Shown here: in pieces, positions 25,855 through 59,637 of the stretch | Layout of the letters: every line of letters starts with the position of its first letter | Position numbering within the stretch: position 1 is the stretch's first letter | Origin: Fontisphaera persica | Lineage (GTDB): Bacteria > Verrucomicrobiota > Verrucomicrobiia > Limisphaerales > Fontisphaeraceae | Length of the DNA: 64,000 bases | Direction: 5' to 3' | Assembly (NCBI RefSeq): GCF_024832785.1 | Contig: NZ_CP116615.1 | Span: forward strand, 2,418,001 to 2,482,000 | Made by a program: the position numbers and the translations under genes | Notes under the pieces: model-generated | Told to the model about the DNA's origin: nothing | Database searches by the model: none | Seen by the model: only the letters and a program-made list of their open reading frames with translations

Positions 25855-26232
25855 GCGTCTGATGGATGGTTGTTACACTTAGGTTACAAGCTAAACCAAA
25901 AATTGCAATGCCTGAATGCAAAATCCACCCCCAAAACCTCCATTTGCACCAAGGGCCGCTGACACCGCAGCGGATTCTCAGCGCCCTCACCTCCGTCCGC
26001 GCTCCCGCTTACCTCCTACCACCATGCGCAGATGCCGCGTGATGGCGGTGACATGCCACCTCCACGCAAATCTCCCCTCACGCTTTGCGGTTGCCAAATC
26101 GGCCCAACAATGGTTGACTGGGCCTCATAGCCTGAATTGAAAAAAAACATGGGATGCACCGCGCCAGTAATCAAATGCCGACTCCTGCCGTCGTGCCACG
26201 GTCGCTCTGCAGAGCACTCCGCATGCAACCAT
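25855..26232. other. Intergenic region between the giant secreted-protein gene and the CRISPR locus
   Basis: There is no convincing gene in these 378 bp. The side next to 25854 is AT-rich (for example TTGCAATTTTTGG on the minus strand) and probably holds the promoter of the giant gene, but I could not fix a -10/-35 pair. The right part should contain the cas9 promoter or lie just outside it; nothing specific was recognised. Confidence 0.4.
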
Positions 26233-26344
26233 AAAAAAATCGCCGGCGGGGAACCGGCGATTTTTTATGAGATGCTCTTCAAACCCGGTGTGCGGCTTGG
26301 CCGCAGGGAACCGGTCTGCACGCATCTAACTTTGTCTTGATTCA
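26233..26344 (-). ncRNA. tracrRNA of the type II-C system
   Basis: Read on the minus strand, TGAATCAAGACAAAGT (26344-26329) is complementary to the first 16 bases of the minus-strand repeat (GCTTTGCCTTGATTCA) with one mismatch and one G-U pair, which defines an anti-repeat. Downstream comes a nested fold: an outer 6-bp stem AGATGC/GCATCT (26327-26322 with 26275-26270), an inner CCGGT/ACCGG stem and an apical hairpin TGCGGC-CAA-GCCGCA (26305-26291). A strong intrinsic terminator ends the RNA, giving about 110 nt. It is divergent from cas9 and directly adjacent. The opposite orientation would have no hairpins or terminator before running into cas9. Fold and ends are inferred from sequence only. 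Confidence 0.88.
26234..26266 (-). terminator. tracrRNA intrinsic terminator (potentially bidirectional)
   Basis: A perfect 13-bp stem, AAAAAATCGCCGG paired with CCGGCGATTTTTT, with a 7-base loop. The U-run on the minus strand ends the tracrRNA. Because the stem has A-runs on one side and T-runs on the other, it could also stop plus-strand transcription entering the cas operon from upstream. Confidence 0.88.
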
Positions 26345-26349
26345 TTAAC

Positions 26350-26378
26350 ACTCTACCTCATCCCTTTATGCAAAGCAA
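26350..26378 (-). promoter_or_regulatory. Putative tracrRNA promoter, inside the cas9 5' end
   Basis: On the minus strand, TTGCTT (26378-26373) and TAGAGT (26355-26350) are separated by 17 bp. Counting 7 bases on gives a start near 26343, at the beginning of the anti-repeat. The -35 box lies within cas9 codons 2-4. The boxes match consensus only moderately (3/6 and 4/6), so this is a prediction from position and spacing. Confidence 0.5.
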
Positions 26379-29300
26379 CCACAAAAATACTCCCTCCCAA
26401 CCCGACCTCGAACTGGCCTTTGACGTCGGCCACAGCTCCATCGGCTGGGCCGTCCTCCAGGAGGTCAACTCCCCATCCCCGGCCAACGATGAATTGCCCA
26501 CCCCAGCCCTGCTGGGCTGCGGCGTGGTCATCTTCGGCGCCGACGATTGCCTGGCCAAAAAACGCCGCGATTACCGCCGCCAGCGCCGCCACATCCGCGC
26601 CACCCGGCAACGCATCGCCCGCTTGAAATCCCTGCTCGCGCACCTGGGCGTCCTCAAACCGCACCAACTGGACAAGCCCGGCTGCGCCTGGCCCTGGCTC
26701 CTGGCCGCCCGCGTCCTCCGCGGTGGCCCCCTGCTCTCCTGGCCGGAGTTGTGGGACGTCCTCCGCTGGTATGCCCACAACCGCGGTTACAACGCCAACC
26801 GCCTCTGGAGCCGCCAGGAGCACGGGGAAGAAGAAGATGCGGAAAAAGTGCAAAATGCCCGGCATCTTTTGGAGAAGCATCAGACCCGCACCATGGCCGA
26901 AACTATTTGCGCCATTTGCGGCCTGGACCCCCTCGGCAATAAACGCTCCTGCCATCTTCCTGGCGACCAGCGTCCCAAGGGCCTGAACGCCGCCTTCCCA
27001 CGCGAAATTGTGGAAGCTGAAGTGCTGGACATCCTCGAACGTCACAAAAATCGCCTTCCCCAGCTCAATCAGGCTTTCATACATGCGCTGATGAGCGATT
27101 GGAAAGCCATTGGTTGTCCGTCCATTAAATTGCCGGAGCGCTACCACGGCGGCCTCCTCTTTGGCCAGCTTGTCCCACGCTTCGATAACCGCATCATTTC
27201 CTCCTGCCCCATCACCTTTGAAAAAGTTTTTCAGCAAACCCTCCAGGAAACCCAAGACCCCAAAGAGGCCGAGCACCGCGCCACCAAAGCCGCCAAAGTG
27301 CCCGCCGCCAAATGTCCGGAATTCCTGCGCTTCCGCTGGGCCATGCTCCTGGCCAACGTCAAAATCTCCCAGGCCGGCAACGGCCATGTGCGCCCGCTAT
27401 CCGTAACAGAACGGCAAACCCTGCACCAAAAAATGGAGGCCAAAGGCTTCCTGACCAAGGACGAATTCAAAAAAGCCGTGCGAGAATTGACCCACAACCA
27501 GCCCGACAACCTGGACCAGATGCTCATGCCGCCGGATGCCGACAAAATGCTCGTCCTTGACCCGGTCAAAAAGGCGCTTTCGCAGCCCTTCCTAATCGCA
27601 ATTTGGCCCCATCTGCCCATCCGGCTCCAAAAACGCGCCATCGGCCAGTTACGCCATGGTAAAAGCATTACCTTGGCAGAGCTTTGCAAAAACGCCTCGG
27701 AAGAAGAACGGCGGCGCCTCCAGCAAGCCCTCCAGGATTTTGCCGCCCAGGAAAATACCAAGAAGAAACGTGGCCAGACCCACACCGTGGAGGACTGGCT
27801 CAAACAACGCCTCCATGCCGACCTCCCCAGCGCCCGCGCCCCTTACACCCGCGAAGTCATGCGCCAGGCATGGCAGGACGTCATGGAAAAAGGCATCCAC
27901 CCCAAGGAAAAAGACGGTTGCCTCTACCGCGATGAAGCCATCCGCGAAGCCCAAATCCAACGCAGCATTGACCAACAAACCAACAACCATCTCGTCCGCC
28001 ATCGTCTCAAAATCCTCGAGCGCCTCCACCAGGACATCCTCAAAGCCTATGCCAATGAGGACCCATCGCGCATCAAACGCATCACCATCGAGGTCAACCG
28101 CGAATTGCGCGACTACTCCGGCATGACCCGCAAAGAGCAGGAACAAGACCTGGGCCAGCGCCTTGCCCATTTTAAATCAGCCGTCAAAAAACTGGAGGAA
28201 GACCTCAAAGGGAACAATATCCGCATCACCGCCGGCCTCATCCGCAAGGCGCGCATCGCCATGGATTTGGACTGGACCTGCCCTTACACCGGCAAAGATT
28301 ACGATGCCATTACCCTGGCCAGAAAGGGCGTGGACAAAGACCACGTCATCCCGCGCAGTCAACGCGCCAGCGACAGCCTGGATTCCCTCGTCATCACCTT
28401 CCCGGAAGTCAACCGCATGAAAGGCAAACGCACCGCCCTGGCGTTCATTGAGGAATTCCAAGGCCGCACCGTGGAAGGACGCCCCGACCTCACCATCCGC
28501 ACCGTCAGCCAATACCGCCAATGGGTGGAAAGCCTGGATACCCGCAAAGGACATGCAGAAGATATACGCCGTAAAAAACGCCGCAAAGAACTCCTCCTCC
28601 TCCGCGACTATGTCGAGGAGGAATTCACCCCCCGTGACCTGACCCAAACCTCCCAGTTGGTCCGTCTGGGCGCCGCTTTGTTGCAACGTCCCTATCTTGA
28701 ACTCGAGCAAAAACCCGTCATCACCTCCCTCCCCGGCAGCGTAACTGCCTTCATCCGCCGCGGCTGGCAATTGCTGGGATGCCTCAGCCTGGCCAACCCC
28801 CAGGTCCTCGACGAATCCGGCCACGTCCGCACAAAGGATGAAATCCGCGGCATCACTCACCTGCACCACGCCTTGGATGCCTGCACCCTCGCCCTCGCCA
28901 GCCATTACCTCCCCCGCGATGGCCACTTCTGGCGCCTCCTGCTCAAACGCCGTCTCAATTCCGCCGAGCAACGACAGCTCGCCCACGCCACCCGCGGCCT
29001 ATGCCAATTCAACAACGACGGTGAAGTTGTCCTCCGTGACCTGCCCGCCGCGTTCAAAGAACAATTGCGCCAGCGCCTCGCCGAGCGCCGCGTCGTCCAG
29101 CACATCCCCAAAGACATGTCCGGCCTGCCGGCCGAGGAAACCGTTTATCGCGTCTTCGACCCCCAGGACTCCCACCCCTCCGCCAAGCGCCTGCGCCGCT
29201 GGTTTGAAGCCCAAAAGGTCAAAATCCCCGCACCCCAAGATGACACCGTCCTCATCGTGTGCCGCAAGCGCATCTCTTCGGCAGATGCCCAGTCCGGCAC

Positions 29301-29781
29301 CGTCTTGCATGAAACCAAAACCTGGCGCTGGGTGTACAAAGAAGTCGAGAAATCCAAACTCATCGGCTTGAACCCCGAACCCGGCTCCCCGGGCAAACTC
29401 AAAAAACTTAAGGCCGTCAAAATCATTGGCGACAACTTTGGCATCGCCCTTGACCCTCAGCCCACCATCATCCGTTTCCACAAAGTCTGGCACCAGCTCC
29501 AGGCCCTGCGCCGCCAAAACCAAAACCGCCCCGTCCGCGTTTTGCGTAACGGGCAGCTTATTCGAGTGCCCGATGGTAGGTACGAAGGCGTGTGGCGTAT
29601 TGCGAGTGTGAAAGCAGCCATGACTTTGGACATAATCGCACCAGATCGGGTTAAAGTCGAAAGCAAGGGAGTTGGAATTAAAAGAGATGTAAAACTTGCA
29701 ACCCTTGTAAAAAACGCAATGGAAATTCTCGATTCCAGCTACGTCGGAATTGCAGCATGTCCTATCACATCGTCAACATAG
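26368..29781 (+). CDS. cas9: Cas9 endonuclease, type II-C (1137 aa)
   Basis: RNA-guided DNA nuclease using tracrRNA:crRNA. RuvC-I is LAFDVGHSSIGWAV with catalytic Asp19. The Arg-rich bridge helix is KKRRDYRRQRRHIRATRQR. RuvC-II is RITIEVNREL with Glu575. The HNH domain has a CPYTGKDYDA lead-in, DKDHVIPRS (Asp658, His659) and EVNRMKG (Asn682). RuvC-III is HLHHALDACTLAL with His834 and Asp837. All nuclease residues appear intact, and the length fits subtype II-C. The next gene is cas1, overlapping by 25 bp in another frame; there is no csn2 or cas4. The last 70 or so codons are visibly AT-richer with different codon choice, hinting at a swapped PAM-interacting C-terminus. The first codons overlap the predicted tracrRNA promoter. 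Confidence 0.97.
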   Translation: MQSNHKNTPSQPDLELAFDVGHSSIGWAVLQEVNSPSPANDELPTPALLGCGVVIFGADDCLAKKRRDYRRQRRHIRATRQRIARLKSLLAHLGVLKPHQLDKPGCAWPWLLAARVLRGGPLLSWPELWDVLRWYAHNRGYNANRLWSRQEHGEEEDAEKVQNARHLLEKHQTRTMAETICAICGLDPLGNKRSCHLPGDQRPKGLNAAFPREIVEAEVLDILERHKNRLPQLNQAFIHALMSDWKAIGCPSIKLPERYHGGLLFGQLVPRFDNRIISSCPITFEKVFQQTLQETQDPKEAEHRATKAAKVPAAKCPEFLRFRWAMLLANVKISQAGNGHVRPLSVTERQTLHQKMEAKGFLTKDEFKKAVRELTHNQPDNLDQMLMPPDADKMLVLDPVKKALSQPFLIAIWPHLPIRLQKRAIGQLRHGKSITLAELCKNASEEERRRLQQALQDFAAQENTKKKRGQTHTVEDWLKQRLHADLPSARAPYTREVMRQAWQDVMEKGIHPKEKDGCLYRDEAIREAQIQRSIDQQTNNHLVRHRLKILERLHQDILKAYANEDPSRIKRITIEVNRELRDYSGMTRKEQEQDLGQRLAHFKSAVKKLEEDLKGNNIRITAGLIRKARIAMDLDWTCPYTGKDYDAITLARKGVDKDHVIPRSQRASDSLDSLVITFPEVNRMKGKRTALAFIEEFQGRTVEGRPDLTIRTVSQYRQWVESLDTRKGHAEDIRRKKRRKELLLLRDYVEEEFTPRDLTQTSQLVRLGAALLQRPYLELEQKPVITSLPGSVTAFIRRGWQLLGCLSLANPQVLDESGHVRTKDEIRGITHLHHALDACTLALASHYLPRDGHFWRLLLKRRLNSAEQRQLAHATRGLCQFNNDGEVVLRDLPAAFKEQLRQRLAERRVVQHIPKDMSGLPAEETVYRVFDPQDSHPSAKRLRRWFEAQKVKIPAPQDDTVLIVCRKRISSADAQSGTVLHETKTWRWVYKEVEKSKLIGLNPEPGSPGKLKKLKAVKIIGDNFGIALDPQPTIIRFHKVWHQLQALRRQNQNRPVRVLRNGQLIRVPDGRYEGVWRIASVKAAMTLDIIAPDRVKVESKGVGIKRDVKLATLVKNAMEILDSSYVGIAACPITSST

Positions 29782-30701
29782 ACTCTCCGCAATGCTCCAT
29801 CAGTTGTCGCGACGGCCAGCTCGTCTGCAAAACGGCTGACTCCGAACGCAAGCTGCCGCTGGAAGATGTGGCCGCCATTATCATTACCAGCTTCTCCGCC
29901 TCCATCCACAGCCATCTCTTCCTGCAGGCGGCCAAACATGGCGTGGCCCTCATTTTGTGCGAGGCCTTCAAGCCCGCCAGTCTCGTCCTCCCCGCCCGGA
30001 GGGCCACCGACACGCTGCTTTGCCGCGCACAAATCGCCCTCAGCGAACATCAGCGCGCCGCCCTTTGGCAAAAAACCATCGAGGCCAAATGCCAGAACCA
30101 GCTTGCCCTGGCCGAGTCCTTGGCCCCCCGCCATGAACGCCTGCCCGACTTGCGCACCGCCGCTCGCAGCCGCAAACCTCACAAGGAATCCTTTTGTGCC
30201 CGATATTACTGGCAAATCCTAGGCTCCGCCCTGAACACGCCCGACTTCAATCGTGGACGCCATGCAGGCAGTTGGAATAACCTGCTCAACTATGGATATG
30301 CCGTCCTCCTCTCCGCCACCCTCCAAAAACTTTTTGCCCTGGGGCTGGACCCAACCTTTGGCATCTCGCACGCCACCCGCGAGCGCAGCACCCCCCTGGC
30401 TTATGACCTCATGGAACCCTTCCGCCCCTGCGTGGATTGGCGCGTCATCCAGTGGATGCTCAACCACCCCCACGCCACCGCTTGGGAAGTCACCAAGGAA
30501 TTCCGCCAATGGGTCACCGGTTTCGCCATCGAGCGCGTGGAATACCTCGGCTTCAACCTGGACATTCACGGCTGCCTGGAAGGCGTAATCCGCGGCTTCC
30601 GCCGGGCGGTGGTGGAAAAACAAACCAGATATTACCGCCCCTGGCTGACCAAAAATGGTTTTGCCAAAGTTGAAAAAATTACAAACCAGCAGCTTTCCTG
30701 A
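29757..30701 (+). CDS. cas1: Cas1 integrase (type II-C), 314 aa
   Basis: Spacer-integration nuclease that acts as a Cas1-Cas2 complex. The expected metal ligands are present: Glu144 (HKESFCARYYWQIL), His205 (FGISHATRER) and Glu220 (LAYDLMEPFRP). The N-terminal beta domain (MSYHIVNIDSP, DVAAIIITSFSASIH) and length are typical. ATG 29757 lies inside the cas9 3' end, so translation is probably coupled. cas2 follows after 50 bp. A complete Cas1 beside Cas2 suggests the locus can, or recently could, acquire spacers. Confidence 0.96.
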   Translation: MSYHIVNIDSPQCSISCRDGQLVCKTADSERKLPLEDVAAIIITSFSASIHSHLFLQAAKHGVALILCEAFKPASLVLPARRATDTLLCRAQIALSEHQRAALWQKTIEAKCQNQLALAESLAPRHERLPDLRTAARSRKPHKESFCARYYWQILGSALNTPDFNRGRHAGSWNNLLNYGYAVLLSATLQKLFALGLDPTFGISHATRERSTPLAYDLMEPFRPCVDWRVIQWMLNHPHATAWEVTKEFRQWVTGFAIERVEYLGFNLDIHGCLEGVIRGFRRAVVEKQTRYYRPWLTKNGFAKVEKITNQQLS

Positions 30702-30751
30702 GGCGCCAGACCGCTGCGCGCAGTCGGCCGACAGGGCTTCCTGCTGAAATA

Positions 30752-31087
30752 ATGGATACGGAGAAGTACAAAATGGGCTGGCTCATCGTTGCCTTCGACC
30801 TCCCTGTGCTGACCCCCAAACAGCGCAAGGCGGCCACCGATTTTCGCAAATTCCTCCTCGACGACGGCTACCTCATGGTACAATTGAGCGTCTATGCCCG
30901 CCCCTGCGTCTCTTTCGCCCGCCAGGAAACCCACCTCGAACGCCTTAGAAAGGCCATTCCCCCTGAAGGCTCAGTGCGCGCTATCTTTGTCACCCGCGCC
31001 CAATGGGAACGCTCCTTTGTCATTACCGGCTCGCCAGCCGCTCCCACCGACCCTGAAGCCATGCCAGAACAAATGCAATTCTGGTAA
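30752..31087 (+). CDS. cas2: Cas2 (type II-C), 111 aa
   Basis: The small ferredoxin-fold partner of Cas1. It has the conserved first strand with aspartate (LIVAFDLPVLTPKQRK, Asp16), then FRKFLLDDGYLMVQLSVYAR and GSVRAIFVTRAQWERSF, as in type II Cas2 proteins. It is the last cas gene, ending 167 bp before the first repeat. Gene order cas9-cas1-cas2 with nothing further defines II-C. Confidence 0.95.
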   Translation: MDTEKYKMGWLIVAFDLPVLTPKQRKAATDFRKFLLDDGYLMVQLSVYARPCVSFARQETHLERLRKAIPPEGSVRAIFVTRAQWERSFVITGSPAAPTDPEAMPEQMQFW

Positions 31088-31211: not shown

Positions 31212-31246
31212 AAAAAACTGCAACCGGCTTATACCAAGCCAGTTGC
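31212..31246 (-). terminator. Intrinsic terminator between the array and cas2, reading minus strand
   Basis: On the minus strand an 11-bp stem (GCAACTGGCTT with AAGCCGGTTGC, one U-G pair, 5-base loop) is followed by AGTTTTTT. There is no matching T-run on the plus strand. It sits 9 bp past the cas2-proximal end of the array, where it would stop array or repeat-promoter transcripts before they run antisense into cas2 and cas1. This independently supports minus-strand transcription of the array. Confidence 0.85.
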
Positions 31247-32598
31247 AACTTTCGATTATACCTCCCCCGTTTTTTGAATCAAGGCAAAGCGTGAGGAATT
31301 CGGCAAGAACAAGCCGAAAATTATACCTCCCCGTTTTTGAATCAAGGCAAAGCGAGTTGAGCGCGGTATATTCCGGCAGGGTTATTATACCTCCCCGTTT
31401 TTGAATCAAGGCAAAGCATCAACCCAAGCGCGCTGATACGGCAGCAGATTATACCTCCCCGTTTTTGAATCAAGGCAAAGCGAGCCTGGGCACGAAGTGG
31501 TTTTTGATAACATTATACCTCCCCGTTTTTGAATCAAGGCAAAGCCATCGGGCCGAGTGTCCGATGCCTTTTTATTATACCTCCCCCGTTTTTTGAATCA
31601 AGGCAAAGCGAAGCTTGGAGCTTCTGGCTTCGGCAGTTGATTATACCTCCCCGTTTTTGAATCAAGGCAAAGCATGGCGCGGGTGAGGGTGATGAGCAAA
31701 AGCATTATACCTCCCCGTTTTTGAATCAAGGCAAAGCCTCCAGTCACCACACCATTCTGCACCCGCCATTATACCTCCCCGTTTTTTGAATCAAGGCAAA
31801 GCCGCATCACAACGCACAAGATTTTGGCGCGGATTATACCTCCCCGTTTTTGAATCAAGGCAAAGCCAGCGAGTGGGGCGGGAGGCGGTCAATCGGATTA
31901 TACCTCCCCGTTTTTTGAATCAAGGCAAAGCTCGCTGTCATACACTGGTTGTCCGAATGTTATTATACCTCCCCGTTTTTGAATCAAGGCAAAGCAACCA
32001 TATTTCATCATGAGTTTATGTTGACATTATACCTCCCCGTTTTTGAATCAAGGCAAAGCTTGCGATTCCTCGCAATGCCACGTATTTCGATTATACCTCC
32101 CCCGTTTTTGAATCAAGGCAAAGCTCCAGTCCATCCAGTCCATCCCACAGACATATTATACCTCCCCGTTTTTTGAATCAAGGCAAAGCTGCTGACGGCA
32201 TTGAATCCATTGGGTGCCGATTATACCTCCCCGTTTTTGAATCAAGGCAAAGCTCGTCATGGGCAGGATTGAATCTGGGTCACATTATACCTCCCCGTTT
32301 TTGAATCAAGGCAAAGCTACTGAACCATGCATCCGCCCTGCAAACCCATTATACCTCCCCGTTTTTGAATCAAGGCAAAGCGGAGGCGCCGAGGTCTTCG
32401 CGGATGGCGGATTATACCTCCCCGTTTTTTGAATCAAGGCAAAGCATTCGGCATCCAGATTTGGTTGGTGACGTTATTATACCTCCCCGTTTTTGAATCA
32501 AGGCAAAGCTCCCTGTCCCAGCCGCAGCAGTCCCGAGTTATTATACCTCCCCGTTTTTGAATCAAGGCAAAGCACTGCCCTCGCCGCTGCCTGCGATT

Positions 32599-34017
32599 TG
32601 CGCCAAAAGATTGTTACCCAGGCGGGGCTGACCGGTTGGCGGAAACTGGTCGTTGTGCCAAAAGTCGGTGTTACCGAGCCATGAACACCGAAATGAGTCA
32701 AAACACTCGTCAAGAAGTCCTGGCCCAGCTGCGTCGGCGCTATGCCCGGGCCGGGCGACTCTACAAAGCCCAACTGCTCGACCAGGCCGTCGCCCTGTTG
32801 GGCTACCATCGCAAGGCGACCATTCGGGCGCTGCGGGCCGGGCCGTCGGCGCGACGGGCGCCCGGCTTGGTTTTGGGGCGGCCGAAGACCTACCACCCGG
32901 AGACGCTGCTGCCGGTGATTCGGCCGATCTGGCAGGCGGCCTTCCAACCCTGCGGGGTGCGGCTGCGTGCCCTGCTTCCCGAGTGGCTGGCCGCCTATGA
33001 AACCGATCATCGCCGCCTGGACCCGGATTTGCGCCAGGCGCTCTTGAGTATCAGTGCGCGCACCTTGGATCGTTTGCTGGCCCCGCTGCGGCGGGCGGGC
33101 GGCGGCCGACCGGCACCCGGCCCGGCAGCCTCTTGCGTCAGAGCATCCCCCTGCGCGGCGAGTGGACCGAGACCGGCCCCGGCTGGCTGGGCTGGACACG
33201 GTGGCCCTATGCGGCGGCTGTCTGGATGACCGGCATCTGTGGATGCTGGATGGGGTGGATATTAGCACCGACTGGGCCGGGCTGCGCGCCTTGGAAAACC
33301 GCAGCCAGCACGCCACTTTGACGCAGATTCGCGATCTGGAGGCCAGCCTGCCCTTTGCCCTGCGGGGTGGACACCGACAACGGGGGCGAGTTCATCAACC
33401 ATCACCTGGTGGCCTACCTGGGGCAGCGTCCCCGGCCGGTGCTCTTCACCCGCGCCCGGCCCTATCAGAAGAACGACAACGCCCATGTCGAGCAGCGCAA
33501 CTGGACGCGGGTGCGCCAGCATTTCGGTTATGGGCGTTACGACAACCCGGCGGTCACGCCGCTCATCAACACCCTCTGCAAAGAGGCGTTGGAGCCGTTG
33601 CTCAATCATTTCCTGCCGACCCTCAAGCTGGAGGGTAAGTCTCGGAGCGGGGGCGGATGGTGCGGCAGTATGGCGTCCCCCAAACGCCCTACGCCCGGGT
33701 GCTGGCGGCGGCGGAAGTCAGTGCCGAAACCAAGGCGCGCTTGCGGGCGCTGCACGCCACGCTCAATCCCTTCCAACTGGGGCGGGACATCGAACGCCAG
33801 AAGCAGGCGATTGAAGCCCGGCGGCGACTAACGGCTTGAATTCGGAGGCGTCTTGGAGTACGGGAATTTCCCCAAGAAACGGGAACAAGGGAGGCCGGCG
33901 GGACTGCGTCCGGCGGCTTTCTTTGTTCTCAAATGAGGGGTCAACTTGGGTAACACCCTTTTTGGCGCAACGGGCCCCCTGCCCACCCCGCGCCGGGTAA
34001 CAGTTACTTTTGGCGCA
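32599..34017 (+). mobile_element. Insertion sequence (about 1.4 kb) inserted in the CRISPR array
   Basis: The ends are inverted: left TGCGCCAAAAGATTGTTACCC (32599-32619, written here as a 21-base span whose core is GCGCCAAAAG..GTTACCC) and right, at 33995-34017, the reverse complement of the same core. A second, inner copy of the core lies at each end (32654-32675 and 33948-33969), so each terminus has two similar sites in tandem, probably transposase binding sites. One transposase gene fills the middle. The flanking spacer remnants are 25 bp (left) and 21 bp (right); no clear target-site duplication was seen. Base composition is G-richer than the neighbouring plus strand, which fits a recent arrival. 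Confidence 0.85.
32681..33838 (+). pseudogene. Frameshifted DDE (rve-type) transposase
   Basis: From ATG 32681 the protein starts MNTEMSQNTRQEVLAQLRRR with an N-terminal helix-turn-helix region (QAVALLGYHRKATIRALR). The catalytic core is spread over several frames: LDTVALCGG (first Asp), GVDTDNGGEFINHH (second Asp) and NAHVEQRNWTRVRQHFG (Glu), ending FQLGRDIERQKQAIEARR. At least four frame changes are needed, near 33122, 33190, 33365 and 33650. It belongs to the integrase-core transposases (IS481/IS3-like fold); I could not name the family. If the frameshifts are real the element is dead. If they are homopolymer errors, it encodes an intact protein of about 385 residues. Confidence 0.8.
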
Positions 34018-37000
34018 CAACGGTTGTTTTTTGTTTCTATTATACCTCCCCGTTTTTGAATCAAGGCAAAGCACAGGAATGTCCGCCCCGCGCAAGCCCA
34101 CGATTATACCTCCCCCGTTTTTTGAATCAAGGCAAAGCAGAAGGGCCAACTGGGACTAATATAAAATTATTATACCTCCCCCGTTTTTTGAATCAAGGCA
34201 AAGCCAGATTGGGGATCGAGGCCGCGCTGAAGGCATTATACCTCCCCCGTTTTTTGAATCAAGGCAAAGCAGGCAACACGCGATAGATGAGATTGGTCCC
34301 ATTATACCTCCCCCGTTTTTTGAATCAAGGCAAAGCAGTTGCAATCGGATTCACCGCTTCAAGTGGATTATACCTCCCCCGTTTTTTGAATCAAGGCAAA
34401 GCACCGCGCCAACACCGCCGCATCCAGAGCATATTATACCTCCCCCGTTTTTTGAATCAAGGCAAAGCCCTGAATTGTGCTGCGCGGAGATACGGCATAT
34501 TATACCTCCCCCGTTTTTTGAATCAAGGCAAAGCGCGCGAGGCGCACCGACACAACGACATTGAATTATACCTCCCCCGTTTTTTGAATCAAGGCAAAGC
34601 CCAGTTGGCGCTTTTTCTTCCGCACCTCCAATTATACCTCCCCCGTTTTTTGAATCAAGGCAAAGCCCCTCACCCGGTACACCGTCCCGTCCGGCGATTA
34701 TACCTCCCCCGTTTTTTGAATCAAGGCAAAGCAGGTGACTCGCGCCATGTAGGAGGCGCTGGATTATACCTCCCCCGTTTTTTGAATCAAGGCAAAGCCG
34801 CGCCGCTCCGCGCCCCGGAAGGCCCGAATTATACCTCCCCCGTTTTTTGAATCAAGGCAAAGCTTGGGGGCGCGGTGTGCTTTGGGTTGTGCGATTATAC
34901 CTCCCCCGTTTTTTGAATCAAGGCAAAGCGGGCTTGGTGGCAGCCCCATAATGTGAGGGATTATACCTCCCCCGTTTTTTGAATCAAGGCAAAGCAAAGC
35001 GGGGCCATCAATTCAGGGATTGAAGAATTATACCTCCCCCGTTTTTTGAATCAAGGCAAAGCAGGCGGCACTGAATGCGGCGGGCGGCGAGCATTATACC
35101 TCCCCCGTTTTTTGAATCAAGGCAAAGCAGATCAATCGATCACGGCAGCCTGCTGTTCATTATACCTCCCCCGTTTTTTGAATCAAGGCAAAGCCAAATG
35201 TCTTCATTCTTTTTTCCTTTCGTATTATACCTCCCCCGTTTTTTGAATCAAGGCAAAGCTTACTCTCGCACCAATGCCCCAATTCAATTATTATACCTCC
35301 CCCGTTTTTTGAATCAAGGCAAAGCATTGGGTCAATCCACCCCCCGCAACCAAATATTATACCTCCCCCGTTTTTTGAATCAAGGCAAAGCGAGGAGTTG
35401 TTGGTTGTACTTGAGTAGTCCATTATACCTCCCCCGTTTTTTGAATCAAGGCAAAGCACGAGTTAGGGGGGAGAGATGTCGGATGCGATTATACCTCCCC
35501 CGTTTTTTGAATCAAGGCAAAGCGAACCTCAATGCCAGCAGGCCGCGGTTTGGATTATACCTCCCCCGTTTTTTGAATCAAGGCAAAGCGTGAGCACAAG
35601 CGCGGGCGAAGCTCTCGATATTATACCTCCCCCGTTTTTTGAATCAAGGCAAAGCTGCAATATGCAGGGAAGGCCTTGAGCAATGATTATACCTCCCCCG
35701 TTTTTTGAATCAAGGCAAAGCTGCAATGCAGGTGTTGTTGTCCAAGTCCAAATTATACCTCCCCCGTTTTTTGAATCAAGGCAAAGCGGCTCTGATAAAC
35801 AGGGACGAACTGAGTTTATTATACCTCCCCCGTTTTTTGAATCAAGGCAAAGCCTATGGGAACCCTCGCTGAGAAAAAAAATAATTATACCTCCCCCGTT
35901 TTTTGAATCAAGGCAAAGCAACAGCTGCCGTTTCAACGTCGTCAGATTAATTATACCTCCCCCGTTTTTTGAATCAAGGCAAAGCTGCAGCCCAAACGGC
36001 CGCGAACTTTAGTTTATTATACCTCCCCCGTTTTTTGAATCAAGGCAAAGCGGGTCCGAGCGTCACACAATCGGTCGAACCATTATACCTCCCCCGTTTT
36101 TTGAATCAAGGCAAAGCGCACACCTTGTTACTCGTCGAAAAATACATATTATACCTCCCCCGTTTTTTGAATCAAGGCAAAGCCGGCTGCTGCGCGGTTG
36201 CCACCTCCATGACATTATACCTCCCCCGTTTTTTGAATCAAGGCAAAGCCAATGCCATGTCGGGCCGATTCACATTATCATTATACCTCCCCCGTTTTTT
36301 GAATCAAGGCAAAGCAGGATACGTGTGGGGCTGGCTGAAAGCGGATTATACCTCCCCCGTTTTTTGAATCAAGGCAAAGCTTGCAATTGAACGATGTGCT
36401 GGTGTTGAAATTATACCTCCCCCGTTTTTTGAATCAAGGCAAAGCATAGAGGAACGTCGGCCAGTTGTCGAACCAATTATACCTCCCCCGTTTTTTGAAT
36501 CAAGGCAAAGCACAGGCTCCGCCAGGTCTCCCGCGCCCAGGATTATACCTCCCCCGTTTTTTGAATCAAGGCAAAGCAACTGGTGCCGCCAGCCGTTATC
36601 TCCAAATTATTATACCTCCCCCGTTTTTTGAATCAAGGCAAAGCTACGAGTTGGTGATCCATGAGTTGGTTACCATTATACCTCCCCCGTTTTTTGAATC
36701 AAGGCAAAGCCATTCACCTGCTCTGTCATCACTACAACGTATTATACCTCCCCCGTTTTTTGAATCAAGGCAAAGCATACAACTGAGTATCGAGTGACGC
36801 CATCCCATTATACCTCCCCCGTTTTTTGAATCAAGGCAAAGCCGGTCGCTGCGAACTCCCATCGGGGTGTGGATTATACCTCCCCCGTTTTTTGAATCAA
36901 GGCAAAGCCGATGTGGGCCGCAATCGACTACGAGACTGATTATACCTCCCCCGTTTTTTGAATCAAGGCAAAGCAGCCGATAATGTGAATCGGCCCGACA

Positions 37001-40000
37001 TGGCATTATACCTCCCCCGTTTTTTGAATCAAGGCAAAGCCAACTTGTCAAGCTTTGTGTTAATAGCGCTATTATACCTCCCCCGTTTTTTGAATCAAGG
37101 CAAAGCCCCAACAGACGGTTACCTTCCGCATCAAGATTATACCTCCCCCGTTTTTTGAATCAAGGCAAAGCATGGGCTCGAATCCACCCCCGCAACCAAA
37201 TATTATACCTCCCCCGTTTTTTGAATCAAGGCAAAGCACCGGTGTAAAACGTTTTTACACCGGTGTCATTATACCTCCCCCGTTTTTTGAATCAAGGCAA
37301 AGCGCAATATGGTGTGGCAATTGGCGATGCAGATTATACCTCCCCCGTTTTTTGAATCAAGGCAAAGCCTTTAAGGATGATGCTGTCACCGAACCTGGAT
37401 TATACCTCCCCCGTTTTTTGAATCAAGGCAAAGCGTTGGTTCGTATTTTATTTCTTTTGGGCAATTATACCTCCCCGTTTTTGAATCAAGGCAAAGCAAA
37501 AATTTGACGAAAAAAACAATGTTATTATACCTCCCCCGTTTTTTGAATCAAGGCAAAGCTGGGTATCGTGCAACGCATTGCCGGGACGTATTATACCTCC
37601 CCCGTTTTTTGAATCAAGGCAAAGCAAAAGCCGCCACTTCATTGAAATTTCACGCATTATACCTCCCCCGTTTTTTGAATCAAGGCAAAGCATGACCAGC
37701 GGCCATGGAAATTGAAGATTGATTATACCTCCCCCGTTTTTTGAATCAAGGCAAAGCACGCATTGCAGGGATGTTAGGATTGATAGCATTATACCTCCCC
37801 CGTTTTTTGAATCAAGGCAAAGCGATTGATTGCTGACGAAATACTGGACAAAGATTATACCTCCCCCGTTTTTTGAATCAAGGCAAAGCTATACGCCACC
37901 CCAAACATGGTATTTTCGATTATACCTCCCCCGTTTTTTGAATCAAGGCAAAGCTAGATTTTGTAAGATATTTTGCAAGGTATTATTATACCTCCCCCGT
38001 TTTTTGAATCAAGGCAAAGCCACACGACCTGTGTTTTCATCACGCCAGTTATTATACCTCCCCCGTTTTTTGAATCAAGGCAAAGCCCCAGCCCATACCG
38101 CAGCAAACTTTAGTTTATTATACCTCCCCCGTTTTTTGAATCAAGGCAAAGCTTCCCATGAGGCCTTCCCTCCTCCAATGTAATTATACCTCCCCCGTTT
38201 TTTGAATCAAGGCAAAGCAACTGGTTCTGACCAACCAACAAATCCTGAATTATACCTCCCCCGTTTTTTGAATCAAGGCAAAGCACCAAATCAAAACACG
38301 TTTGGTTCCATCCGATTATACCTCCCCCGTTTTTTGAATCAAGGCAAAGCTAACAAGTGGGAATTGGAGAGCTACACCAAATTATACCTCCCCCGTTTTT
38401 TGAATCAAGGCAAAGCTGCGCCGGACGCAATCCTGCTCGCCGCTGGATTATACCTCCCCCGTTTTTTGAATCAAGGCAAAGCTATGGGGGACTGTCGGTG
38501 GATATCGTGCCAATTATACCTCCCCCGTTTTTTGAATCAAGGCAAAGCCGAGGGCAGCGGATTGTCAACCGCAATGTCATTATACCTCCCCCGTTTTTTG
38601 AATCAAGGCAAAGCGCTTTGAGTTGCCCGGCGGATGGGGCGGAGATTATACCTCCCCCGTTTTTTGAATCAAGGCAAAGCTTCGGCTGGGGTGACATTGC
38701 GAATGTTAAGATTATACCTCCCCCGTTTTTTGAATCAAGGCAAAGCGGTCATATGATACAAGCGCGGGGGTGGGGTATTATACCTCCCCCGTTTTTTGAA
38801 TCAAGGCAAAGCTAATTTGGCAATCAAGTTGAATCCGTGGGATTATACCTCCCCCGTTTTTTGAATCAAGGCAAAGCTGCACTCATTCCATTCAACTCAC
38901 CGCCTGAATTATACCTCCCCCGTTTTTTGAATCAAGGCAAAGCGCTACTGCTCAATTCTTGGCGGCGGTAGCCATTATACCTCCCCCGTTTTTTGAATCA
39001 AGGCAAAGCGCAGTTGGGCAATGTTCGACAGACGACGGCATTATACCTCCCCCGTTTTTTGAATCAAGGCAAAGCGTCAACCTGGCATTTTCTCGGTCTG
39101 CGTTTATTATACCTCCCCCGTTTTTTGAATCAAGGCAAAGCGAAAGTGCGCGGTTAATCAACGGGCCCGGAATTATACCTCCCCCGTTTTTTGAATCAAG
39201 GCAAAGCCTTGGTTGCGCTCGGTGTCTTTTTGGCGGTATTATACCTCCCCCGTTTTTTGAATCAAGGCAAAGCCGACATTTGCCGGTCGTGTATCGGGGC
39301 AAAATTATACCTCCCCCGTTTTTTGAATCAAGGCAAAGCGCTTGGTATTGATTGAACCAAGCCGGTCGTATTATACCTCCCCCGTTTTTTGAATCAAGGC
39401 AAAGCTTGTGGAGACTTTCGCCGAGTGTTTGGCAAATTATACCTCCCCCGTTTTTTGAATCAAGGCAAAGCATAACCGGAATCCATGACCACGCATCCAT
39501 ATTATACCTCCCCCGTTTTTTGAATCAAGGCAAAGCCCTGCTCCTTGGCCAGGCGCGCCCGTTCCTATTATACCTCCCCCGTTTTTTGAATCAAGGCAAA
39601 GCGATAAATCTTTGGTGCAGATTTTGAATCGCATTATACCTCCCCCGTTTTTTGAATCAAGGCAAAGCTGATACTCCCGTCCAGGCCACCACCGGCTTAT
39701 TATACCTCCCCCGTTTTTTGAATCAAGGCAAAGCCACTAAAGGCGTTGAACATGAGCAATCACGATTATACCTCCCCCGTTTTTTGAATCAAGGCAAAGC
39801 CCATGAAATTAGTGGTGGATGAGTTGGTTAATTATACCTCCCCCGTTTTTTGAATCAAGGCAAAGCTATTAGAAAATCTAATACAAAGTTTAAGACATTA
39901 TACCTCCCCCGTTTTTTGAATCAAGGCAAAGCAATCAGCGTTAGAGTTAAATCGCTTGCCGCATTATACCTCCCCCGTTTTTTGAATCAAGGCAAAGCGA

Positions 40001-42005
40001 GATGGCGTTTAGATACTGATTGGGAGAGATTATACCTCCCCCGTTTTTTGAATCAAGGCAAAGCCGGCGTTCACGAGGTCTTGAAGTTCCAAAAATTATA
40101 CCTCCCCCGTTTTTTGAATCAAGGCAAAGCTAACGGCGTCGAGTGGGTAAGGATTTGGGAATTATACCTCCCCCGTTTTTTGAATCAAGGCAAAGCAGTG
40201 TCCGGATCATGTTACCTGACAGTTGTATTATACCTCCCCCGTTTTTTGAATCAAGGCAAAGCAGTTTCACCGTGATGCACGCGTCGGCAACATTATACCT
40301 CCCCCGTTTTTTGAATCAAGGCAAAGCTGGCTTTCCCTCGACAGGCAAGGCAACTCTATTATACCTCCCCCGTTTTTTGAATCAAGGCAAAGCTGTCGGA
40401 CCTACTTTTGTGACTCGACCAGTATTATACCTCCCCCGTTTTTTGAATCAAGGCAAAGCCAAAATGGAATTGAGAGGAGAGCAGCAGAAATTATACCTCC
40501 CCCGTTTTTTGAATCAAGGCAAAGCTGCCTGCCCAATCTGCTTGAAATCACCGCGATTATACCTCCCCCGTTTTTTGAATCAAGGCAAAGCATGCAGTTG
40601 GTGGTGGACGAGCTCGTTAAAATTATACCTCCCCCGTTTTTTGAATCAAGGCAAAGCAAACGGTTACATTAATGGTGTGTGCGATTTATTATACCTCCCC
40701 CGTTTTTTGAATCAAGGCAAAGCTATATTTCCTGGAACGCGCTTTTTGGGCAAATTATACCTCCCCCGTTTTTTGAATCAAGGCAAAGCAATGATTTTGG
40801 CTACGTGTTTCCACTCGAAATTATACCTCCCCCGTTTTTTGAATCAAGGCAAAGCGAGACTTGGCCTGGAAATTGGACGTGGTTGATTATACCTCCCCCG
40901 TTTTTTGAATCAAGGCAAAGCAAAATGAAAAAAGACTTGAAAAGTTATGTGATTATACCTCCCCCGTTTTTTGAATCAAGGCAAAGCAGGACAGTATCTC
41001 CCTGGAGATTCACGGGATTATACCTCCCCCGTTTTTTGAATCAAGGCAAAGCATCGTCCAGGGTCAAGGTAACACTAGTATCATTATACCTCCCCCGTTT
41101 TTTGAATCAAGGCAAAGCCTCAGTGACCATGCGCCAATATTGCTGGGTATTATACCTCCCCCGTTTTTTGAATCAAGGCAAAGCAGAGATCGAGGCATCA
41201 CCGTCCCCGTCCTAATTATACCTCCCCCGTTTTTTGAATCAAGGCAAAGCATTAATCACGTCATTGTGGACATTGCCAGCATTATACCTCCCCCGTTTTT
41301 TGAATCAAGGCAAAGCTGCCAACAAACTGCGCAATCCATGGTGGAGATTATACCTCCCCCGTTTTTTGAATCAAGGCAAAGCGCAGGCTAGCGGTTATTA
41401 TCATCCTGAGGCATTATACCTCCCCCGTTTTTTGAATCAAGGCAAAGCACCAAAGCATAACTATTGTTATGCTCGATTATTATACCTCCCCCGTTTTTTG
41501 AATCAAGGCAAAGCTACCTAATAATGGCGGTAGCAGTAGCCAGCATTATACCTCCCCCGTTTTTTGAATCAAGGCAAAGCCGTTCCATGCCCGGGCTGCA
41601 AAAAAATGGTATTATACCTCCCCCGTTTTTTGAATCAAGGCAAAGCCAGCGTGAAATTGTTGTCCATTGACTGCCAATTATACCTCCCCCGTTTTTTGAA
41701 TCAAGGCAAAGCAGCCAATCTGTAATGCGTGTTCGTGGTATGATTATACCTCCCCCGTTTTTTGAATCAAGGCAAAGCACCCCAGCATGTACAACCCCAA
41801 CCAAACAATTATACCTCCCCCGTTTTTTGAATCAAGGCAAAGCTGGCCGGGAAAGCTTCGCCGGGCTTTGCCGATTATACCTCCCCCGTTTTTTGAATCA
41901 AGGCAAAGCTGAACGCGGTGATTGGGGCGAGCATGTCGCATTATACCTCCCCCGTTTTTTGAATCAAGGCAAAGCCCCCGCGCAGGGTGCCAAACGGGTC
42001 AACGA

Positions 42006-42041
42006 ATTATACCTCCCCCGTTTTTTGAATCAAGGCAAAGC
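42006..42041 (-). promoter_or_regulatory. Repeat-embedded crRNA promoter (representative copy; present in every full-length repeat)
   Basis: On the minus strand each full repeat carries TTGATT (here 42033-42028) and a perfect TATAAT at its very 3' end (42011-42006), separated by 16 bp. Transcription would begin about 6-8 bases into the next spacer, leaving a guide of roughly 22-24 nt. This is the arrangement known from Neisseria and Campylobacter II-C arrays. In 34-bp repeats the gap would be 14 bp, so those copies should be weak if their length is real. Confidence 0.75.
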
Positions 42042-42071
42042 CTTGTTGTTATACTTTATCGAGCGTTGGTA

Positions 42072-42107
42072 ATTCTACCTCCACGATAGAGTTATAGCCA
42101 TAGAGTT
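42072..42107 (-). repeat. Degenerate terminal CRISPR repeat
   Basis: Exactly 66 bp after the last full repeat, the plus strand reads ATTCTACCTCCACG, matching the first bases of the repeat with two differences, and then loses similarity. The intervening 30 bp (42042-42071) has spacer length. On the minus strand its -10 equivalent is TAGAAT, and no -35 box is kept. Confidence 0.7.
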
Positions 42108-42397
42108 ATAGTTTCAATCTTAACCTACAAATTAAAAAAGCCCCCGTCCGGTTTTTCCACCGGTTTCCAAATTAGGCCGTTGTGGACCATCAAAGCCACG
42201 CTGGCGCGTGCCCGTGAGAGCCCCTCTTGCCCAAGGCTGACTATGGTCAGCCTGACTAAAATCTACTCTCTTTTTCTTTTGAATCAAGCCGCACGCCAAA
42301 GAAAGTTGAACATTTCGCATTTTAAGCTAATCAAAAGGTTGTGCGGGCATGCCCGCTGCCTGGTCATTCCACGCCGGCAAGCCTTCACCTCATACGC
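42087..42397. other. Region between the array and htrA, with an isolated repeat-like segment
   Basis: No gene was recognised. At 42261-42296 the plus strand carries ATCTACTCTC and then TTTTGAATCAAG, with GCCAAAG a few bases later, like a second degraded repeat. On the minus strand it keeps TTGATT, a 16-bp gap and TAGATT, the same promoter geometry as the repeats. It could be a leader promoter, a repeat fossil or a second anti-repeat (no terminator was seen for the last). A short direct repeat of ATAGAGTTATAG lies at 42087-42110. The right end should contain the htrA promoter. Confidence 0.45.
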
Positions 42398-43852
42398 ATG
42401 AAACGTTTTTGGCATCTCGCAGCATATCCCGTGCTGGCTCTGGCCGCGCACGCTGCCGCCGCTGAGCCTCCGGCGCTCAAGGCCATGGATCTGGCCCGCG
42501 CGCTCAATCAGGCCTTCACCGAAGTGGCCAGCAAGGTCAGTGACTCGGTGGTGGTCATCAAAGTGGCCCAGCGCAACACCTTTCACGACTGGACCGAGGG
42601 CAATCCCTTCCTGGACATGTTGCCCCCTGAGTGGCGGCGCCGGTTCGAGGAGCGCCGCGAGCGCGGGCCGGCCGAGCCGCGCTTCAACGGTCAAGGCTCA
42701 GGCGTCATCATCCGCGAAGATGGTTATTTGCTGACCAATTTTCATGTGGTGGACAACGCGGAGAAAATCCGGGTGCGCCTGCACGATGGGCGGGAATTCG
42801 ATGCCACCCTCACCGGCTCCGATGCGCAATCCGACCTGGCGGTGCTGAAGATTGCGGCCACCGGCCTGAAGGCCGCCCGTTTCGGGGATTCCTCCGCCAC
42901 CAAAGTGGGTGAGTTTGCCATTGCTGTGGGCGCGCCGTTTGACCTGGATTACACCGTCACGGTGGGGCACATCAGCGCCAAGGGCCGCTCGCGCATTCTG
43001 CCGGACCCTTCCATGGACCAGGACTTCCTGCAAACCGATGCCAATATCAACCCCGGCAACAGCGGCGGCCCGCTGGTCAACCTCGAAGGCGAGGTCATCG
43101 GCATCAACACCATGATTGCCGGCTTGAACACCGGCATCGGGTTTGCCATCCCCTCCAACCTCGCCCGCGAGGTCGCCGCCCAGCTCATCCAGCATGGCAA
43201 ATACACCCGCGGCTGGCTCGGCGTGGCTATTACTTCCCTGCGCGAGGACCCGGACTACCGCAACCTCGTCCAGGGCGTCCAGGACGGCGTGGTGGTGCGC
43301 GAAATTATGCCCGACGGCCCGGCCGCCAAATCCGATTTGAAACCGGCGGACATCATCACTGCGGTGGACGGGCATCCGGTGGCCACCTCCCAGCAACTGC
43401 GCTACGAAATCCGCTCCAAGCCCCTCGGCCGGGAGGTGGTGCTCGATGTGTACCGTAAAGACCGTTCCCTCAAAATCAAGGTGCGCCCCGAGGCCTGGCC
43501 CGATGCCCAGGAAACCGCCGCCACCGTCCGCCGCCGCCCCGCTCCCGCCGCGGTGGATTCCGAATCGTTGTTGGGCCTCACCGTCCAGCCCCTCACCCCT
43601 GAATTGCGGAAAAAATTTGCGCTCCAGGCCCAATCCGGCGTGGTCGTTACCGCCGTGGCCGGAGACAGCCCCGCCGCCGCCAAAGAATTGAAAGCCGGCG
43701 ATGTCATCACCGAGCTGGACCACCAGCCCGTGCGCAACTTGCGGGATTTTCGCGAAGCCCTGAAAAACGCCGACACCACCAAAGGCGTGGTGGTCAATTA
43801 TTTGCGCGGCGGCGCCGGCCGTTTTGTGATTCTCAAGAGCAGCGGCGACTAA
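42398..43852 (+). CDS. HtrA/Do-family periplasmic serine protease (484 aa)
   Basis: I choose ATG 42398, which gives a compact signal peptide (MKRFWHLAAYPVLALAAHAA); the frame is open further upstream. The trypsin-like domain has the full triad: His116 (LLTNFHVVDNA), Asp146 (SDAQSDLAVLKI) and Ser222 (NPGNSGGPLVN). PDZ1 (about 265-355: GWLGVAITSLRED, PADIITAVDGHPV) and PDZ2 (about 395-484: LGLTVQPLTPELRKKF, AGDVITELDHQPV) follow. HtrA proteins degrade or refold misfolded envelope proteins. It stands alone, with a terminator just after it. Confidence 0.95.
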   Translation: MKRFWHLAAYPVLALAAHAAAAEPPALKAMDLARALNQAFTEVASKVSDSVVVIKVAQRNTFHDWTEGNPFLDMLPPEWRRRFEERRERGPAEPRFNGQGSGVIIREDGYLLTNFHVVDNAEKIRVRLHDGREFDATLTGSDAQSDLAVLKIAATGLKAARFGDSSATKVGEFAIAVGAPFDLDYTVTVGHISAKGRSRILPDPSMDQDFLQTDANINPGNSGGPLVNLEGEVIGINTMIAGLNTGIGFAIPSNLAREVAAQLIQHGKYTRGWLGVAITSLREDPDYRNLVQGVQDGVVVREIMPDGPAAKSDLKPADIITAVDGHPVATSQQLRYEIRSKPLGREVVLDVYRKDRSLKIKVRPEAWPDAQETAATVRRRPAPAAVDSESLLGLTVQPLTPELRKKFALQAQSGVVVTAVAGDSPAAAKELKAGDVITELDHQPVRNLRDFREALKNADTTKGVVVNYLRGGAGRFVILKSSGD

Positions 43853-54519: not shown

Positions 54520-55737
54520 TCACTTTCCACCGGCGGCGCCGCCGGCCCTCCCGCCCGCATGCACCCGCCGCTGATACAATCGCCCCCACGCCACCATCGT
54601 GCGCAGCGAGGGTTGAAACCATTTTTGCGCCATCAGCGTGGGCACAAACGCGCTCAGGATGACCACCGTCACCAGCACGGAATACTGCTCTTGATTGATG
54701 ATGTTGTTCTGCAAACCAAACAACGCCGAAATCGTGCCAAACGTCAGCCCCGTGGACATCAGCAACGCCGTGTAGCTGGCCTCCCGCGACCGCATGAAAA
54801 AGTACCGCGACAACGGCCACACCCCGACGGTCTTGGTGGCCATCTTCAACAGCAACAACACGGCAATTATCCCCGCCCCCGCTTTCAAGGCCGGCAGCGA
54901 AACAAACAAACCCGCCTTGATGAAGTAAAATGGCGTGAAGATGGCAAACGCAATGCTCCGCATCCGGTGTACCAGCGTTTTATCCCGCAAAAACACGCCC
55001 GCCACCACCAGCCCCAGCAAATAAGCCGGCAGCACCGCCTCGCTTTTGGCCGATGAAGCCAGCCCCCCCAGGAAAAACAAAACTAAAAACAAAAACTTCA
55101 CCTCCGGCTCGCTCACCCGCGTGGCCCCCAGCCGCGCAATGAGATATTGCGTCCACCTCGGCATGAACCACAACATCACCGCCGTCACCGCCACAAAAAC
55201 CACCAGCCAGACATTGAAGTCGGCAAACAGCACCCCCAGCGCCAGCACCGTCCCAAAGTCTGTAATGAAACAGGCGGCCAGCAGCATCTTGCCCATGGCT
55301 GAGCCGCTTAATCCCCCTTCAATCATCACCGCATAAACCACCGCCACCGAGGTGGTGGACAACGCAATGCCGGCAATTTGCGCCTGCCGCAGCGGCCAAT
55401 CCAAAACATATTGGCAGAACAGCCACACCCCCAAAAACGGCAATAGAAAGGACAACACCCCGATGCTCAGGCTGGCCCGCAAATTGGCCCGCAAGGAACC
55501 CGGGTCAATCTCCGCCCCCGCCAGAAACGTCAACACCCCGCTCCCCAGCATGGCCAGAAAATTTGTCCACTCCGTCGTGTGCAGCAGCGGCGCATGGCCC
55601 GGTGGATGCAAATTCCCCACCACCACACCCAGCAATATCTCAATCAAGGCCACTGATATCCCCAGCCGGATGGAAATGAGGCTGGCCAGCAACGCCAGTC
55701 CCATCCAGAAAGTCGCGATGAACCAAATGTTATCCAT
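54520..55737 (-). CDS. CPA2-family cation:proton antiporter (405 aa)
   Basis: About 11-12 hydrophobic segments. The start (MDNIWFIATFWMGLALLASL) and the segments GVLTFLAGAEIDPGSLRAN and IAGIALSTTSVAVVYAVMIE are typical of Na+/H+ or K+ efflux antiporters of the KefB/NapA type. No C-terminal NAD-binding (TrkA-N) domain is present. It is the first gene of the operon with USP and dynamin-like genes. The ion is not determined. Confidence 0.9.
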   Translation of the reverse strand: MDNIWFIATFWMGLALLASLISIRLGISVALIEILLGVVVGNLHPPGHAPLLHTTEWTNFLAMLGSGVLTFLAGAEIDPGSLRANLRASLSIGVLSFLLPFLGVWLFCQYVLDWPLRQAQIAGIALSTTSVAVVYAVMIEGGLSGSAMGKMLLAACFITDFGTVLALGVLFADFNVWLVVFVAVTAVMLWFMPRWTQYLIARLGATRVSEPEVKFLFLVLFFLGGLASSAKSEAVLPAYLLGLVVAGVFLRDKTLVHRMRSIAFAIFTPFYFIKAGLFVSLPALKAGAGIIAVLLLLKMATKTVGVWPLSRYFFMRSREASYTALLMSTGLTFGTISALFGLQNNIINQEQYSVLVTVVILSAFVPTLMAQKWFQPSLRTMVAWGRLYQRRVHAGGRAGGAAGGK

Positions 55738-56130
55738 GAGTGCAAATAAATGGACGGCCAGGCTGGCAGGCCATGCGCCTGCGCGCCTCGCACGCTCCGT
55801 TGGAAGCCAGTGGCCGGTGAAAATCTGGTGGGAAGCAATCGGCGCCCTGCCACGTTGGCAGGTGCACTTCCGCTGAACTGCCCCTTCGCCTCATAACTTG
55901 CCCACCGTCACCTCAAACAAAACGGTAGGAGTTATCAGCGCTGAAAACCTGTCAGCACAGTTCTCTGGGCAGCCCAGACGGCAAACCCCATTGCCACGGT
56001 TACCATAACCCAAATCCGCCTTTATGCAATCCCCCACTCAGCCAGTCCCGCCTTAAGTGCCAATGGCAGAAGCGGCTCCGCCCCCGCCCCGCTTCTGCCT
56101 GTGCCGCGCCTCAACGCGGCATTGCCCCGC
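55738..56130. other. Intergenic region upstream of the antiporter operon
   Basis: A stretch of 393 bp with no convincing gene. It should contain the promoter of the antiporter-USP-dynamin operon; no clear -10/-35 pair was chosen. The right side abuts the stop of the convergently oriented uncharacterised secreted protein gene region. Confidence 0.4.
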
Positions 56131-59619: not shown

Positions 59620-59637
59620 ACGGAAAGCCCGGCCGCC

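Follow-up and report, generated by a model that had tools for sequence, protein, structure and literature searches.

A 143-repeat type II-C CRISPR array in Fontisphaera persica with promoter-like sequence in every full-length repeat

The stretch of Fontisphaera persica DNA analyzed here (64,000 nucleotides, called the window; positions 2418001–2482000 of a single-contig 4.73-Mb genome) holds a locus of clustered regularly interspaced short palindromic repeats (CRISPR), in which cas9, cas1 and cas2 lie adjacent at 26368–31087 and are followed by the repeat array, with no csn2 or cas4 and nothing else between. Judged from its sequence, the locus is of type II-C. The array (31255–42041) contains 143 repeats, 122 of which are an identical 36-mer and 21 of which are only 34–35 nucleotides (nt) long. 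The 36-mer reads ATTATACCTCCCCCGTTTTTTGAATCAAGGCAAAGC on the plus strand and GCTTTGCCTTGATTCAAAAAACGGGGGAGGTATAAT on the minus strand, where it has the layout GCTTTGCC-TTGATT-N16-TATAAT.

TATAAT is the final hexamer, with TTGATT 16 bp upstream, in 122 of 122 full-length repeats on the minus strand. An earlier reading made from the letters alone (the sequence-only reading) had described just this arrangement, in more than 120 uniform copies, and both the arrangement and the number are borne out by our count. It also called the boxes near-consensus, which fits the −10 box (6/6) better than the −35 box, since TTGATT matches TTGACA at only 4/6 positions (10/12 for the whole site), the spacing is 1 bp short of the optimum, and the repeat has no extended −10 TG. 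Among shuffled 36-mers of the same composition, TATAAT appears on either strand in 3.0%, and TATAAT together with a −35 match of at least 4/6 at 15–19 bp in 0.17%. The 122 copies all descend from one repeat and therefore represent a single event; we rejected the idea of counting them as independent support.

The strand that is read into CRISPR RNA (crRNA) is indicated by the trans-activating CRISPR RNA (tracrRNA). An anti-repeat, TGAATCAAGACAAAG, one base from the repeat in sequence, lies at 26344–26330 (minus strand) just upstream of cas9, and the same element adjoins cas9 in relatives. The 23 aligned tracrRNAs have this anti-repeat and a hairpin in common, with both-side changes in 5 of the 6 consensus pairs, and the tracrRNA of the window folds much better than its shuffles (z −4.9) and has a strong terminator at its end. 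The anti-repeat is complementary to the 5' half of the repeat as read on the minus strand, which implies that this strand gives rise to the functional crRNAs; on these sequences it is the predicted crRNA strand. Another tracrRNA candidate, at 42278–42400 on the plus strand, was rejected because shuffled sequences fold as well as it does (z 0.34), and was replaced by the gene at 26226–26344; a sliding RNA-duplex search for anti-repeats gave no discrimination.

On the cas2 side, the motif TTGCAACTTTCG abuts the first repeat both in the window and in a congener (L039). Taken together, the tracrRNA pairing, this leader motif and a decayed repeat at the far end indicate that the array is read against the direction of the cas genes and in that of the leader, so that the predicted site of entry of new spacers is the cas2 side and the predicted direction of crRNA transcription is toward the leader. 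Transcription toward the leader side is the rule reported for II-C arrays (PMC8092290; PMC12080349). With the leader at the downstream, cas2 end, a leader promoter cannot make crRNAs, and the earlier suggestion that leader-driven precursor crRNA is not needed agrees with this comparison. Each newly acquired spacer, in turn, sits just downstream of a repeat.

To compare repeats we gathered those of relatives both through Cas9 searches and through the pattern of the repeat itself, and compared 68 distinct 36-nt sequences; these are related to one another, so that the counts are not fully independent. An alignment-based scan (80 loci) placed nearly all Cas9 relatives in the Verrucomicrobiota, while a genome scan with a single Cas9 as query gave no match. 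Positions 1–16, the tracrRNA handle, are nearly fixed. Toward the 3' end, 64 of the 68 repeats retain A32, 57 retain A34 and 63 retain T36, and positions 31, 33 and 35 drift; A32 and T36 occur together in 61. These two correspond to −11A and −7T of the −10 element, on which recognition by sigma depends most. Compared with TATAAT, nt 31–36 match at 3.5/6 positions on average, against 1.6 in shuffles (maximum 2.0). The −10 at the repeat 3' end is thus conserved against drift, reaching 6/6 in the window repeat, and outside this genus the perfect TATAAT is found in a single genome (G314).

A further line of evidence comes from the oldest repeats. A degenerate 144th repeat beyond the far end of the array (P 4.5e-4 in shuffled flank) has mismatches at 7/8 positions of the handle, 5/6 of the −35, 8/16 of the middle and 1/6 of the −10; the tracrRNA handle is lost, and the −10 is kept as TAGAAT. 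There is no spacer upstream for the oldest repeat to serve, which leaves a use only for its promoter half. Nine relatives whose far-end repeat has decayed show 25 changes in nt 1–8, 4 in nt 9–14, 6 in nt 15–30 and 0 in nt 31–36; three further far ends (G337, G401 and G298) have slight change or a G-run indel only. Oldest II-C repeats have been reported to be mutated mainly in the first ∼15 nt, with promoter function suggested to be retained (PMC12080349).

By comparison and precedent, the best explanation of these observations is that each repeat acts as its own minus-strand crRNA promoter, to which we give a probability of roughly 0.8. RNA polymerase would recognize TATAAT at the repeat 3' end, aided by TTGATT 16 bp upstream, and would start ∼5–8 nt inside the next spacer. 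The transcript would cross the rest of the spacer into the next repeat, whose handle GCTTTGCCTTGATTC would pair with the tracrRNA, the product of the divergent gene upstream of cas9; the duplex would presumably be cut by RNase III of the host, leaving a crRNA with a ∼23–26 nt guide after one processing event. The sequence-only reading had put the guides at 22–24 nt, but with the C. jejuni start at spacer nt 5 as the guide, roughly 23–26 nt would be expected. Transcription would proceed toward the leader at the cas2 end, where a hairpin terminator would halt it before it became antisense to cas2-cas1-cas9. That earlier reading also spoke of about 120 independent promoters; the comparison favors its minus-strand crRNAs and repeat-borne promoters, and initiation at every one of the repeats is only inferred.

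Several points weigh against this explanation. It draws on sequence, comparison and precedent, and the boxes were judged against sigma-70, which may not be the sigma preference of the host. Many relatives have a −10 of only 3/6, with C at position 31, so that promoter strength must vary, and the size of their arrays shows no correlation with how well the −10 matches (rho −0.16, p 0.28), for which reason we rejected the notion that a better −10 goes with a longer array. The −35 is the weakest part: TTGATT, a 4/6 match at a workable distance, is fixed within the tracrRNA handle. TTG is present in 66 of the 68 repeats and TTGAWT is as fixed as the handle around it, but because this segment pairs with tracrRNA its conservation is no evidence for use as a −35, and we rejected it as promoter evidence. 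The earlier statement that both boxes lie in the repeat is right about the sequences; the −35 would be conserved anyway for tracrRNA pairing. Outside-in erosion could also contribute in part to the decay at the far end.

An alternative to promoters in each repeat is that a single promoter at the far end (42042–42341, minus strand) produces a long precursor crRNA, which is cut with the help of tracrRNA and RNase III, and that the −10 likeness is a by-product of Cas1-Cas2 recognition of a terminal inverted repeat. There is indeed a promoter-like sequence, TTGAAA-15-TATAAC, upstream of the oldest repeat, and the repeat ends do form an imperfect inverted repeat (GCTTTGCC / GGTATAAT), a symmetry that would by itself explain A32 and A34. 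The same symmetry predicts C36, found in 5 of 68 repeats where 63 have T, and would fix A at position 33, which is free (A in 22 of 68); at position 35, A in 30 repeats versus G in 10 again breaks the symmetry toward the −10. T36 consequently needs another reason, which the −10 supplies. A single transcript would moreover have to cross the insertion sequence that splits the array to reach the newest spacers, and in C. jejuni starts have been mapped in each spacer (PMC3656092). We regard a far-end promoter as the sole source of crRNA as unlikely. Classical leader-driven transcription of the plus strand from the cas2 side is far less probable still: the leader does lie on the cas2 side, as in CRISPR types whose leader holds the promoter, but the tracrRNA is complementary to the repeat as read on the minus strand, so that an RNA copied from the other strand could not pair with it, and relatives have the same antiparallel arrangement and tracrRNA.

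A variant that is compatible with promoters in each repeat is that only the −10 is used, TTGATT being purely a tracrRNA handle at a coincidental spacing, in which case the 34–35-nt repeats would be about as active as those of 36 nt. The fixation of TTGAWT with the handle agrees with this, as do the promoters of C. jejuni, which are without a clear −35 (PMC3656092). However, the repeats of this genus have no extended −10 TG to offset a missing −35, and TTG-type −35 boxes are used by the tracrRNA promoters of several relatives, where some are clear (e.g., TTGACA-17-TATAAT in G215), which shows that promoters of this kind occur in the clade. We consider this variant a real possibility, at less than even odds.

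The array is bounded on its leader side by a hairpin at 31248–31212 with a 14-bp stem and T6 (60-nt fold z −4.0). In the congener this position is also taken by a hairpin, different in sequence and followed by T5 (z −3.9), and a further relative (G188) has one too; 7 of 23 relatives have a significant leader-side hairpin (z below −3.5), three with a T-tract. Such a hairpin would stop the promoter of the last repeat, and any read-through, from entering cas2-cas1-cas9 in antisense. We found no report in the literature of a leader-side II-C terminator, the published ones being upstream of arrays.

The type II-C system of Neisseria meningitidis, reportedly described by Zhang et al. in 2013, is said to have 36-nt repeats with a −10-like 3' end, TACAAT, an array antiparallel to cas, and initiation at each repeat; its repeat presumably has an extended −10 (TGCTACAAT) and no TTG at −35, the reverse of the present one, which has no TG but a TTG-type −35. 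In C. jejuni II-C the −10 ends at the last repeat base and starts were mapped at spacer nt 5 (Dugar et al., 2013; PMC3656092); that system has no clear −35, whereas here a −35-like TTGATT stands 16 bp from a perfect −10 in an array of 143 repeats. Clostridium cellulolyticum H10 also has a II-C array opposite to cas, with the terminal 9 nt of the repeat resembling an extended −10, but it is a firmicute with 9 repeats (PMC7038990). In Flavobacterium columnare and F. psychrophilum, transcription likewise starts within the array, at promoters encoded by the repeats, and proceeds to the variable end, where the leader lies; an array of F. psychrophilum split by an insertion sequence is still transcribed in both parts; their motif is only a TTG ∼33–35 bp upstream of the spacer, which fits Bacteroidota promoters, whereas here both boxes are sigma-70-like (PMC8092290, PMC10309648). 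A survey of extraneous crRNAs treats each repeat as its own promoter as general for II-C, and places terminators upstream of the array, in contrast to the terminator-like hairpin found here downstream, at the leader (PMC12080349).

Given that promoters in each repeat are established in Campylobacter and treated as general for II-C (PMC12080349), the novelty first claimed for this array was overstated. From its sequence the array very probably represents a known II-C trait, here in a promoter sequence that is more complete than usual and in an uncommonly large number of copies, to which we make modest additions: a −35/−10 pair whose −35 overlaps the tracrRNA handle, 143 copies, and a putative leader-side terminator. 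Mapped repeat-borne promoters for Verrucomicrobiota were not reported in the literature searched. As a more ambitious proposal, which we advance tentatively and at somewhat less than even odds, Verrucomicrobiota II-C repeats would carry a complete −35/−10 in which one segment is both the −35 box (as DNA) and the tracrRNA-pairing handle (as RNA), so that the same bases have to suit both the pairing of the Cas9 guide and the spacing of the promoter, and a terminator beside the leader would keep more than 140 tandem promoters off the cas antisense strand.

If each repeat does fire, the supply of crRNA would be independent of the distance from one promoter, an array of 143 spacers could stay expressed despite an insertion sequence in its middle, and mapped repeat-borne promoters would be extended to the Verrucomicrobiota. 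The common TTGATT segment and the 36-, 35- and 34-nt variants provide a ready test of the need for a −35 and of its spacing, and the II-C repeats catalogued across the phylum, together with the tracrRNAs that match them, are useful for Cas9 guide design. We also note two metagenome-assembled genomes of Kiritimatiellae (L203 and L207) whose II-C repeats have GCTTTGCCATAGWTC replacing GCTTTGCCTTGAWTC and thus lack a TTG where the −35 would be, one of them also without a −10-like end (CTGAAC); they offer a natural comparison for two-box promoters.

The 21 shortened repeats (16 of 34 nt and 5 of 35 nt) have losses in the G-run and/or A-run homopolymers, and comprise repeats 2–5 and 7–22, proximal to cas2, and repeat 74. 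Their boxes are 14–15 bp apart, and if real they would be poor sigma-70 promoters. Of repeats 1–22, 20 have a shortened G-run and 16–17 a shortened A-run, in combinations close to those of independent events. One inherited allele is disfavored by this and by the 1-bp homopolymer indels in copies of the insertion sequence, and the block may rather reflect sequencing error or per-copy slippage. Runs of at least 5 in the spacers nearby, however, show no clear depletion. Repeat 74 (34 nt; region 37464–37523) sits alone in the uniform part of the array and adjoins its shortest spacer, the sole one of 26 nt, in which there are two A-runs; local homopolymer undercalling is possible. In a relative (G298, contig C21, ∼59628–60236) the G-run has 7, 8 or 9 G among the repeats of one array, so slippage is possible too; this variation alters how far apart the −35-like and −10-like boxes lie. 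The insertion sequence has GCGCCAAAAG in common at its termini as an inverted repeat. Its transposase frame is broken after 182 aa in the array and in both other copies (genome positions 4044221 and 2067546), and the three copies differ mainly by 1-bp homopolymer indels.

Table 1. Coordinates, in the window, of the CRISPR-Cas locus and its associated features.
Feature	Position	Strand	Remarks
tracrRNA gene, divergent from cas9	26226..26344	minus	anti-repeat TGAATCAAGACAAAG, covarying hairpin, intrinsic terminator
Candidate tracrRNA promoter TTGCTT-17-TAGAGT	26350..26378	minus	score hardly above shuffles for this genome alone
cas9 (1137 aa), type II	26368..29781	plus	TIGR01865 cas_Csn1, E 6.5e-59; HNH_4 and RuvC_III
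cas1	29757..30701	plus	TIGR03639 cas1_NMENI (type II), E 1.4e-47
cas2	30752..31087	plus	TIGR01573, E 6.1e-16
Terminator-like hairpin and T6	31212..31248	minus	TTGCAACTGGCTTG-GTA-TAAGCCGGTTGCAG TTTTTT; directly downstream of array in predicted crRNA direction
Conserved leader motif TTGCAACTTTCG beside first repeat	31243..31254	plus	identical in congener L039, 10968-10979
CRISPR array	31255..42041	minus (predicted crRNA strand)	143 repeats; orientation from tracrRNA
Block with 20 of the 21 shortened repeats	31320..34072	minus	possible homopolymer sequencing error
Insertion sequence (1.43 kb) splitting one spacer	32593..34023	plus	transposase frame broken; two near-identical copies elsewhere in genome
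Example full-length repeat	42006..42041	minus	tracrRNA handle nt 1-16; TTGATT 42033-42028; TATAAT 42011-42006
Degenerate oldest (144th) repeat	42072..42107	minus	30 nt beyond repeat 143; outside the array as delimited above

A search of phage records for protospacers, made with 34039–42038 (8 kb of the array), gave no match from which to read a protospacer adjacent motif, which in type II-C would be expected 3' of protospacers in crRNA orientation. Within the array, the spacers at 36250–36279 and 36975–37004 are reverse complements that overlap by 26 nt within one target, and those at 35326–35355 and 37172–37201 have a common 3' core; in such related pairs the same invader, or its relatives, is sampled repeatedly. 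Beside the CRISPR locus, at 5567–25854 (minus strand), are the genes of three giant proteins (1708, 2217 and 2086 aa) with laminin-G-like, lamin-tail (LTD), CotH kinase and Ig-like domains. A fluoride riboswitch (RF01734, 36.2 bits) at 55919–56004 (minus strand) lies upstream of a gene of the Na+/H+ exchanger family at 54520–55737.

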